A stretch of DNA of 36,779 bases from a bacterium. GTDB lineage: Bacteria > Patescibacteriota > Gracilibacteria > UM-FILTER-43-11. The stretch is taken from assembly GCA_030427295.1 (NCBI GenBank), contig JAUHWS010000010.1, positions 1 through 36,779 on the forward strand, given 5' to 3'. The translations under genes and the position numbers were made by a program. Shown here in pieces: positions 1-32,587 of this stretch. Positions within the stretch are counted from its first letter, which is position 1; every line of letters starts with the position of its first letter. The notes beneath the pieces are model-generated. The model was not told the origin of the DNA. It saw only the letters and a list, made by a program, of their open reading frames with translations, and ran no database searches.

Positions 1-61
1 AGCTCCAAGCTCCAAGCTCCAAGCTATACCTCGCACTTTGCACTCCCCACTTTAGGCGAAA

Positions 62-303
62 GTATATACTCACCCTCTCCCCAACTATATACCTATCCTC
101 TTCAGAATGTTGGGGTTCATCTCAGTACTTTTTTCAGCAAGCGATTAGCGAATAGCGAGTAGCGAATAGCTGAAATAGATCTTAGAATAGGACTACGCGC
201 TAAATGCTAATCGCTACACGCTCAAAAAATCAACTCGTAATTAGTCACTTGTAATTCGTAACCAAGAATAAAGTATATACTCACCTCAACCCAAAGTATA
301 TAC
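62..303. repeat. Third locus of paired GTATATAC motifs
   Basis: Octamers at 62-69/85-92 and 273-280/296-303; both offsets are 23 bp. Confidence 0.85.
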
Positions 304-323
304 TCACCCCAAACCTCAATGTC

Positions 324-393
324 ACTCCCGAGCCTTTATGGTCCACGAGCTTAGCGAGTGGTTTACCAAAAAGGTGAACTCGGGAGTCTTTTT
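324..393 (+). terminator. Composite stem-loop followed by T5
   Basis: ACTCCCGAG (324-332)/CTCGGGAGT (379-387), CCTTT/AAAGG, GGT/ACC, CCAC/GTGG nested, then cttttt. Confidence 0.6.
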
Positions 394-469
394 GAATTCA
401 GAGGTTCCAGATACAGACGACTCTTGGATCAAGCCAAAGAGTGACAAGCCACAACTTACCTATTTAAAA

Positions 470-2366: not shown

Positions 2367-2831
2367 ATGCCAAAGTCAGTGTCCGTTTTGCTTCACAACA
2401 TTCGGAGCATGCACAATGTGGGGTCGATTTTTAGGACGGCGGATGCGGCTGGGGTGATTCATCTTTATTTGACGGGGTATACGGCTTGTCCTCCTCGAAA
2501 AGAGATTACTAAAACAGCTTTGGGGGCAGATACTTTTGTGTCCTGGTCTTATCACAAGGATCCGGACAGTTTGCTCCGTGAATTAAAAGCTAAGGAATAT
2601 CAGATTGCGGCGCTGGAAAAGAATGAAGAGAGTCAGGATATTTTTTCGTTTGAGGGACTTGATTCTGATCGACCTGTTTGTTTGATTTTGGGGAATGAGG
2701 TGGGTGGGGTTGAAAGCGATTTGCTCAACCTTTCTGATGAGGTTTTGCATATTCCGATGCGGGGTCAAAAGGATTCGCTCAATGTGAGTGTGGCGTTTGG
2801 GATTGGGGTTTATTTAGTTACGAATTACTAA
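2367..2831 (+). CDS. SpoU/TrmH family RNA 2'-O-methyltransferase (SPOUT)
   Basis: NIRSMHNVGSIFRTADAAG, LILGNEVGGV, IPMRGQKDSLNVSVAFGI are the SpoU motifs 1-3. Confidence 0.93.
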   Translation: MPKSVSVLLHNIRSMHNVGSIFRTADAAGVIHLYLTGYTACPPRKEITKTALGADTFVSWSYHKDPDSLLRELKAKEYQIAALEKNEESQDIFSFEGLDSDRPVCLILGNEVGGVESDLLNLSDEVLHIPMRGQKDSLNVSVAFGIGVYLVTNY

Positions 2832-3013
2832 TTACGAGTTACGAATTTATTTTGGAGCGTTTAGCGGTTAGTGTGTAGCGTTTAGCTCCATTTAAAATAT
2901 GCCCTTGCTAGACGCTGATCACTTATAAATTACGAGTTACGAATTTATTTGAGCGCTTAGCGCGTAGTCCTATTTTAGCTATTCGCTAGTCACTGGCCGC
3001 TAGCCGCTTATAA
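2817..3013. repeat. Intergenic heptad-phased repeats (GTTACGA, TAGCGNN/CTANNCG families)
   Basis: 2817-2844 gttacga attacta attacga gttacga; 2855-2889 gagcgtt tagcggt tagtgtg tagcgtt tagctcc; 2951-3013 gagcgct tagcgcg tagtcct attttag ctattcg ctagtca ctggccg ctagccg cttataa. Confidence 0.85.
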
Positions 3014-26075: not shown

Positions 26076-26505
26076 CGAATGGTTTACGAATTGTCTCACG
26101 TATAGTTTACGAATAGTTCCGAATAGGCTGCGGATAGTGTACGAATGATTCCTATTTGGATTACGGATTATGGATTACGTAGTACGCGGTCTCATAAAAA
26201 TTAGACATTCGCTCATTAGACATCAGACATTAAGTATATACCCACCCTCTCTCCAACTATATACCCAAGTCTTAATTCATTCCAATTCACCTCAATATTC
26301 ACCAATTCATTCCAAACAGATTCTAAACTTGAATTTCTAATGTCTAAATGATTTAGAATTTGATTTATTTAAGCTGTTTTCGTTCCAAATAAGGTTTAAA
26401 AATTAGACATTCTGAATTGAGTTTTATTTAGAAGCTAGAACCTAAGAAATTAGAAATTGAGAAAAAGTATATACTCACCCTCACCGAAAGTATATACCTA
26501 CCTTT
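26076..26505. repeat. Dispersed intergenic element copy A (11-bp array, heptads, two 23-bp-offset GTATATAC pairs)
   Basis: Aligns along its length with 32177-32587; see findings. Confidence 0.85.
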
Positions 26506-26514
26506 TATTCAAAG

Positions 26515-26652
26515 AGCTGGGAGCTTGGAGTTTGTAGCTGGTGGCAAAATTTAGTGAATATAACTCTTTGATTAAACATAAATAAAAGACAGTTTAAGTT
26601 ATTCCAGATACCCACTAGTCTACCAGCTCCCAGCTAATAGCTAACAGCTCAC
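26515..26652. repeat. AGCTNNN heptad clusters
   Basis: 26515-26542 agctggg agcttgg agtttgt agctggt; 26625-26652 agctccc agctaat agctaac agctcac. Confidence 0.75.
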
Positions 26653-26654
26653 TA

Positions 26655-28415
26655 TTACCAAGCACCGCCTCCGCCCCCACCAAAACCACCTCCGCTAAAT
26701 CCACCACTGAAACCACTGCCTCCTGACCAGGCAGAGCTTCCTCCTGATGAGCGTGGGGCGCTGCGCATGATGGTGGATAGGTTTCGATCAAAGCGGTTTA
26801 AGCTGAGCCAAAAAATGCTCGGCCTGAAGCCTTTCATCATGGCTTCATCGTCACTTTCAAACCATTTAGGAGCTTTTTTATAGAGTCCATCAAAGACCTT
26901 ACACCATTGGTCGGCTATGCTCAGGGTCATGGCGTAGGGGAGGAGTTTCTCAAAGCGATTTTCTTTGGCGTGGAATTCAAGACGGTCTTTTTCGGCCGTT
27001 CGAATGTAGTCTTCTAAACCTAAAATGTGATAATAGGCCTCCACGCCTTTTTTAGTCTTGGCAGGCATGAAGCGTGCAAAAATAAGAACGATCAACCCGG
27101 AGCTGGCGATCCCGATGGGAACTGAAATGCTGGTTTCTAAAATAAAATAGGCCATTCCAAATAGGGGGGTGGCTAGTAAGATAATCCCTAAAATAAAGTA
27201 TCGGAGTCTTACTTTGTCTGGACGTTGAGGGAAGATTCCTTCATTGACCAGTTTTTTGTAGAGCATTTTTTTGATGCCCGGTAGCTTTTTGTAGAATTCA
27301 TATTTTAGATCCTCCATATCCTTTTTGTCTGAGCTTCCAAAAACCCCTTTTAGAATGGCCTTTTCGTGATCCTCGAGTTTTTCATCGGTTTCGAAGGCTT
27401 TGAGTTTGTGAAGGGTGTAATTTTTTTTATCTTTAAAGAGCTTCTTTTCGGTTTTTTCTTCAATTTTTAAATAACCTCGCACGGCCATGTCGATCAGTGT
27501 AGCTGTGATGTCTTGGATGTCCACTTTTTCATCTAAAATGGTGCCGACTTCGGTGGGCTTCATGCCTTCCGGGGCTTCGTACTGTGGAATGATGGTGCTT
27601 TTTTTGCTTCGAGGATTTCGTCCCCGGGTGGCCCACAAATACATTAAGATCAAGAAGGTGAATAAGGGAAGTAGGTAAGCCCAGTTGTCTGCTAAAAACC
27701 ATTTCACGACCTGACTGGTCGCTATAGGCTCAATGCTTCCTTTTGGTAGGCCGATGACTGTGGTTAATCCTTCTTGAGCCTTTAAGCTTTTTTTTGCTTG
27801 ATAAGTGACTTGGTTTTTCTCAATTTGAATGTCGCAGGCTTGCTCGGTGGAACCATAGGGTCCGGTGTAGCAAACCGCATCTACTTCGCTAGGGTCGATA
27901 TTTTGGGGATAATGAATGGTGCTTGAGGCGTTTTGAATGGGGACCTCCCATTCTGTTCCGGTAACATTCCAATATAGTTCGTCGTGGGTGTCTTGATAGC
28001 CAATGGCCCTGAGGACCTGGTAGTGTAACTTGAAGGTGAGGGGGTCTGAAAAGTATTGGTTTTGGTCTCCGGCTTTGATGACCAGATCGTCACCTTCTTT
28101 GCTGGTTTCGTACCACCAGGCTTGATCGTTTTCGTCTGTGACGGACAGAAGCTCCATCCTTAATTTGAATCGGTTTTGATTTCCATCGAAATAACGAATG
28201 GGTATGTTTCTAAAAATGCCATGGTGAGGCTCTTGGCTAAAATCCACCTCAATGGTTTCTGTGATGTCTAGCAGTCCATCGTCTTGAATGACAATGTCAC
28301 TATGAAATGTCGTTACCTCCCAGTTATTGTTGAAATATTGGGCTTGGGTGGGGGTAATTCCAAGAAAGCCAAAAAATAAAATCATCCCTCCGATGACGCG
28401 ATTTTTCCGAGACAT
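26655..28415 (-). CDS. DUF2207 family membrane protein
   Basis: HSDIVIQDDGLLDITETIEVDFSQEPHHGIFRNIPIRY, long middle, Gly-rich tail SGGSGFSGGFSGGGFGGGGGGAW. Confidence 0.9.
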   Translation of the reverse strand: MSRKNRVIGGMILFFGFLGITPTQAQYFNNNWEVTTFHSDIVIQDDGLLDITETIEVDFSQEPHHGIFRNIPIRYFDGNQNRFKLRMELLSVTDENDQAWWYETSKEGDDLVIKAGDQNQYFSDPLTFKLHYQVLRAIGYQDTHDELYWNVTGTEWEVPIQNASSTIHYPQNIDPSEVDAVCYTGPYGSTEQACDIQIEKNQVTYQAKKSLKAQEGLTTVIGLPKGSIEPIATSQVVKWFLADNWAYLLPLFTFLILMYLWATRGRNPRSKKSTIIPQYEAPEGMKPTEVGTILDEKVDIQDITATLIDMAVRGYLKIEEKTEKKLFKDKKNYTLHKLKAFETDEKLEDHEKAILKGVFGSSDKKDMEDLKYEFYKKLPGIKKMLYKKLVNEGIFPQRPDKVRLRYFILGIILLATPLFGMAYFILETSISVPIGIASSGLIVLIFARFMPAKTKKGVEAYYHILGLEDYIRTAEKDRLEFHAKENRFEKLLPYAMTLSIADQWCKVFDGLYKKAPKWFESDDEAMMKGFRPSIFWLSLNRFDRNLSTIMRSAPRSSGGSSAWSGGSGFSGGFSGGGFGGGGGGAW

Positions 28416-32130: not shown

Positions 32131-32176
32131 CTTAATTGCTAATTACAAGTTACGAATTACGAGTTGTTTCACGGAT

Positions 32177-32587
32177 AGATTTACGAATTGTCTTACGTAT
32201 AGTTAACGAATTGTTTTCGAATGGGTTGAGGATAGCTTTTATTTAAGGATTACGTAGTACGTAGTACGCATGATCTCATAAAAATTAGACATTAGCCCAT
32301 TAGGCATCAGACATGAAGTATATACCCACTCTCTCCCTATCTATATACCCAAGTCTTAAATTTCCAATTCACACCAATACTCACCAATTCATTCCAAACA
32401 AATTCTAAACTTGAATTTCTAATGTCCAAATGATTCGTAATTTGTTTTATTTAAGCTGTTTAGAATCCGAATAAGGTTTAAAAATTAAACCTTCAGAATT
32501 CAGTTTTATTTAGAAACTAGAAACTAAGAAATTAGAAATTAAGAAGAAGTATATACCCATCCTCAACAAAAGTATATACCCATGTCT
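32177..32587. repeat. Dispersed intergenic element copy B
   Basis: Aligns along its length with 26076-26505. Confidence 0.85.

Follow-up and report, generated by a model that had tools for sequence, protein, structure and literature searches.

The 1.48-Mb draft genome (98 contigs) of an uncultured bacterium belonging to Candidatus Peregrinibacteria contains an intergenic repeat, estimated at approximately 95-110 copies, whose core of approximately 220-290 bp (26234-26497 in copy A) consists of two pairs of an 8-bp palindrome, pair a and pair b, with an exchangeable payload between them. The palindrome is the only strongly constrained part of the repeat and the same putative operator word also marks promoters, which ties the repeat family to a candidate binding protein. 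We tentatively interpret the element as a non-autonomous, modular, species-restricted intergenic repeat carrying paired operators that would act as docking sites for a tandem MazE/AbrB-type protein, with a nucleoid, insulator or roadblock role. In a PriA comparison the nearest named relatives of the source bacterium were Candidatus Peregrinibacteria with 37-39% identity. Features within the window, meaning the whole 36,779-nucleotide stretch of DNA analyzed, are listed in Table 1.

Table 1. Positions of repeat cores and adjoining modules in the window
Feature	Coordinates	Strand	Description
Outer module U1, copy A	26076-26231	+	11-bp-periodic CGAATRGTTTA array (26076-26140), ACG-type heptads (26161-26187), TTAGACA heptads (26199-26231); separate from core
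Pair a, copy A	26234-26264	+	GTATATAC 26234-26241, 15-bp pyrimidine-rich spacer, CTATATAC 26257-26264
Payload, copy A	26265-26466	+	Class 1 (28 members); imperfect inverted repeat of short repeats
Pair b, copy A	26467-26497	+	GTATATAC 26467-26474, spacer, GTATATAC 26490-26497; CTA after right edge
Downstream module D4, copy A	about 26510-26655	+	Heptad/hairpin, AGCTGGGAGCTTGGAG ... TACCAGCTCCCAGCTAATAGC; like class 3 payload without pairs
Outer module U1, copy B	32131-32315	+	87-91% alike to that of copy A
Core, copy B	32318-32579	+	Pair a 32318-32348, class 1 payload, pair b 32549-32579
Core, locus 1	62-303	+	Pair a 62-92, class 2 payload (28 members), pair b 273-303
Downstream module D1, locus 1	304-405	+	Terminator-like ACTCCCGAG ... 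CTCGGGAGTCTTTTT
Upstream heptad arrays, locus 1	1-58	+	AGCTCCA repeats, then CGCACTT-type module U2; at contig end

Anatomy and distribution of the repeat

Pair a has the form GTATATAC-N15-CTATATAC and pair b the form GTATATAC-N15-GTATATAC, giving four 8-bp palindrome sites per element of which one is the variant CTATATAC, with site starts 23 bp apart within each pair (about two helical turns). A catalogue based on 317 kb of stretches fetched from the draft genome around such sites contained 86 pairs a and 85 pairs b, corresponding to 80 elements with the order a then b in 77. Clustering of the payloads between pairs produced at least six classes (28, 28, 12, 9, 2 and 1 members) with no links to one another at the clustering threshold used. 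Distances between pair starts cluster by class at about 188, 211 and 231-235 bp; helical phasing of these distances is suggestive only, lengths within one class not being independent. In most cases unique flanking sequence begins directly outside the (G)AA preceding the first site and the C(T/C)A following the last, indicating that the pairs are the true ends of the element. The pairs are direct repeats of one palindrome, with no inverted relationship between the spacers of a and b. No terminal inverted repeats beyond the short palindromes were found in the elements, and no target site duplication of ≥6 bp was present, a slight excess of 4-5 bp matches having no common register. Some elements share a middle pair and some pairs have one or three sites instead of two. 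At one locus only one half-site (GCATATAC, carrying one mismatch) lies between module U1 and module D1, the arrangement that an empty or excised state would be expected to leave. Two class 1 payloads (L025 and L026; G000:C36:8406 and C65:47649) contain an inserted palindrome, CCTGCCTGCCGGCAGGCAGG, that is also found beside other elements, and a class 2 payload at G000:C77:6435-6880 (L183, L162) is enlarged by successive 14-bp ACGCTAATCGCTAT repeats.

Modules outside the core abut pair edges exactly and in many combinations. U1 recurs before other payload classes at about ten other loci, whilst pair b is followed by D1, D2, D3 or other modules, and nearly all of the approximately 28 genomic copies of D1 lie directly 3' of a pair b. 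No association between payload and outer module was detectable (permutation p 0.16, 0.54 and 0.49; 38 combinations, with small counts and modules called with simple patterns). Heptad arrays are also present without GTATATAC pairs at 1860-1964 and 2814-3009 of the window (TAACGAATAGCGACTAACG..., TTACGAATTACGAG..., GCGTTTAGCGGTTAG...), partly as inverted copies of class 2 payload arms, and 7-bp periodicity is common in intergenic DNA of the source genome and was rarely found in relatives by scan.

The earlier note had described 26076-26505 as one composite element of approximately 420 bp in an undescribed dispersed non-coding family. Inspection of the sequence located all of the parts it had named for copy A, including TTAGACA-type heptads in U1, AGAA-type heptads before pair b and CTTGAATTTCTAATGTC inside the payload, and reproduced its a-to-b separations of 233 bp in copy A, 231 bp in copy B (32318/32549) and 211 bp in locus 1 (62/273). 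BLAST of 26076-26505 against the source genome detected 56 places. The genes flanking the copies differ and are unrelated to one another, and segmental duplication was rejected on these grounds. Description as a dispersed non-coding family is borne out by approximately 100 copies, absence elsewhere, lack of an Rfam match and the observation that no ORF of ≥90 aa overlaps any element, and a search of the literature on the GTATATAC word and on Peregrinibacteria repeats found nothing relevant. The 420-bp block is not the unit, however: boundaries are the paired palindromes, payloads and outer modules are exchanged, only the segment from pair a to pair b repeats as a unit and 26076-26231 is a separate module.

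Nine occurrences of the word GTATATAC were counted in the window, where 0.11 would be expected, and the pair-a pattern was matched three times compared with none in shuffles. Across the genome the pair-a pattern produced 75 matches and a reversed control none, and exact pairs of either kind numbered 163 forward and 149 reverse, pair b being readable on both strands and hence matched on each. The pairs were absent from 17 other genomes of the family, one congener included, and the consensus had no matches in GTDB genomes or in IMG/VR (the source genome itself left out of both). The pattern GTATATACN{3,15}GTATATAC was present in 12 of 353 genomes of the class including the source, with 120 matches in the source and 1 to 8 in the others. 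A viral origin was rejected on the basis of the IMG/VR result, the seven matches to a looser pattern being unrelated and having different spacers. An element common to the congener was also rejected, the repeat being absent there and the congener holding other, unrelated repeats. One dispersed repeat of the congener, of approximately 180 bp with inverted ends TTCACTCACCT ... AGGTGAGTGAAT (G001, L134:3335-3509 and L138:4946-5119), looks like a MITE of that species.

Site conservation and genomic position

Identity within classes was 97-100% at the four sites, compared with 78-83% in payloads and 65-79% in the 15-bp spacers of the pairs. Since pairs had served to find the first set of copies, constraint was retested with class 2 copies found by payload alone. 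The 96 sites of this set had 13 private changes, a figure that includes apparent mismatches corresponding to structural losses, against 57.5 expected at the terminal-branch rate of the payload, indicating constraint on the sites in spite of the age of the copies. A similar picture could come from divergent source lineages under selection for mobility. The elements are intergenic, and either orientation relative to genes occurs. Where an element end faced a stop codon, the distance was ≤25 bp in 39 of 82 cases, compared with 3 of 54 for ends facing a start codon (Fisher p 5e-8; genes from simple ORF calls), and a terminator-like hairpin is found just 3' of many copies.

The palindrome at promoters and a candidate binding protein

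When GTATATAC sites lacking a second site 23 bp away were sought, five loci emerged with three GTATATAC sites at 11-bp spacing, each just upstream of a gene. These are a TspO gene, a small ORF preceding a carbamoyltransferase gene, two hypothetical genes and the gene of a 110-aa tandem MazE/AbrB-type protein. The latter (C9:8002-8334) consists of two MazE/AbrB-type repeats (PF04014, E 4e-13), and its own promoter contains the triple GTATATAC at C9:7952, 50 bp upstream of the ATG. Among 39 genomes this protein was present only in the element-bearing genome. Comparison with the PDB by sequence produced no match, and a structure model of the protein was too poor for a fold search. Two overlapping ORFs 1.3 kb from the tandem MazE gene (G000:C9:6081-6675, L234) look by eye like a frameshifted transposase of the zinc-ribbon type, IS1595-like.

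In other genomes of the class the genes behind tandem GTATATAC encode a PF04014 antitoxin accompanied by a PIN toxin, a small unclassified protein accompanied by a PemK/MazF toxin, and a pair of BrnT/CopG type. From its tandem occurrence before genes of this kind, GTATATAC is plausibly the operator of antitoxin-type autoregulators. MazE, Kis and YefM antitoxins bind palindromes in their own promoters, and a parallel has been described in the yefM operator, whose palindromes are 12 bp apart (PMC4803016). AbrB-type proteins elsewhere serve as nucleoid proteins (PMC11368403, PMC5222340). Single-domain relatives of the tandem protein in the source and the congener have tandem TTACGTAA-type palindromes or repeats just before the start codon, suggesting that TTACGTAA-type sequences may be a second operator word for the MazE/AbrB-type family in both species; single-domain genes with such palindromes were observed at G000:C88 about 765-941 (L246) and at G001:C168 (L243). 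Another genome of the class, G176, contains GTATATACATTGTATATAC-type tandem palindromes at eight places (L253 for example), the single locus read having no obvious regulator adjoining.

Interpretation and comparison with known systems

The sites are very likely protein-binding DNA, and the tandem MazE/AbrB-type protein is probably what binds them; more tentatively, the role may be nucleoid- or insulator-like. We infer that the protein would occupy each pair and perhaps bridge pair a to pair b, that occupied pairs would flag the 3' ends of genes as places of nucleoid association, insulation or roadblock, and that elements would be kept there for docking, in many cases with a terminator-like module following. 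Two observations run against this reading, namely the spacing of 11 bp in promoters as against 23 bp in elements and the presence of GTATATAC before ribbon-helix-helix-like or other antitoxins in other genomes, and another protein could be the binder of GTATATAC. Binding alone does not account for the strict a-then-b polarity or for the exactness of the module joints. A wider proposal, which we regard as speculative and rather doubtful, is that an antitoxin-like autoregulator has turned into a sequence-specific nucleoid protein and that a modular repeat has both spread and maintained its operator at the ends of genes, as approximately 100 paired sites, forming a species-specific chromosome-organizing or insulating system.

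In the main rival explanation the half-sites are recombination or transposition sites at which a recombinase, integron-like or IS200/IS605-like, inserts, exchanges and excises payload cassettes, with conservation reflecting the need for mobility. Exact joining of outer modules at pair edges, combinations of payload and outer module without detectable association, the joint of U1 to D1 through one half-site, site numbers of 1-3, the middle pair common to some elements, the lack of target duplication and the direct rather than inverted pairs are all consistent with such a system. We nevertheless consider it somewhat unlikely, as neither an autonomous copy nor a linked recombinase was found in the part of the genome read, the occurrence of the word in promoters is left unexplained, sites are intact on long terminal branches of old copies, and both site-number variation and the single-site joint can arise from ordinary homologous recombination. 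As spread and maintenance are separate questions, this explanation and the operator reading may both be true. The more than 300 sites set against five promoter targets, and restriction to one species, would also suit selfish or neutral copies acting as a sponge, with operators merely titrating the regulator and no function per locus; this is unlikely, since individual copies keep their sites despite approximately 20% payload divergence, suggesting selection on each copy.

A role in RNA, with the element as a 3'-UTR structure stabilizing or terminating transcripts, is consistent with locations just 3' of stop codons, with terminator-like modules after many copies and with payload folds somewhat more stable than those of shuffles (mean z about -1.3 to -2.9). 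Against this, compensatory changes were no more frequent than in shuffles for any class, class 1 has no consensus fold, the second site of pair a carries a C at a position that would have to be G for pairing, the palindrome is also present in promoters and the elements lie in both orientations relative to genes. An Rfam scan of the window gave no match and there was no covariation, and a structured RNA was rejected for these reasons; with folding only modestly above shuffles, the RNA role is less likely than protein docking or recombination cassettes and we judge it quite improbable. Minimum-energy folds often have two outer stems with symmetric 15-nt internal loops, as in an attC-like single-strand hairpin site in which a1 pairs with b2 and a2 with b1 around a variable apical payload. 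We give this very little credence because the self-complementary GTATATAC would form such stems in any case, the first base of a2 is a C facing another C and the elements contain no ORF cassettes.

Bacterial intergenic repeats have mostly been judged by hairpins or mobility. With protein docking at paired operators as the preferred reading, it becomes directly testable whether bacteria keep dispersed repeats as docking sites for proteins, in a reduced-genome lineage whose chromosome organization is hardly known. BOX elements of Streptococcus are modular dispersed repeats of ordered sub-units, a description that the present elements share, although their ends are operator pairs and their payload classes replace each other rather than repeat. 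Similarity to REP/BIME repeats, including those binding IHF or gyrase, lies in approximately 100 copies, intergenic location mostly at gene 3' ends and mosaic arrangement, and REP/BIME are bound by host proteins (PMC2817692); the conserved part here is instead two pairs of an 8-bp operator word, and the REP/BIME hallmark, a GTAG/CGTC-tagged 20-40 bp palindrome, was not seen on reading through the payload classes by eye. The elements are short, non-coding, dispersed and AT-rich like the MITE-like repeats Correia/NEMIS, ERIC and RUP, some of which carry a protein-binding site such as that for IHF (PMC2229807), but unlike a classical MITE they have neither terminal inverted repeat nor target duplication, and their payloads are interchangeable. 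Tandem short palindromes, in phase and just upstream of an antitoxin-type gene, resemble the operators of the type II antitoxins MazE, Kis, VapB and YefM (PMC4803016), whereas the word here is also found at approximately 100 non-promoter sites. The AbrB-type nucleoid proteins cyAbrB2 and Sso7c4 offer a likeness as swapped-hairpin DNA binders at many genomic places (PMC11368403, PMC5222340), the difference being that here the predicted binding would be to a strict word carried by a repeat.
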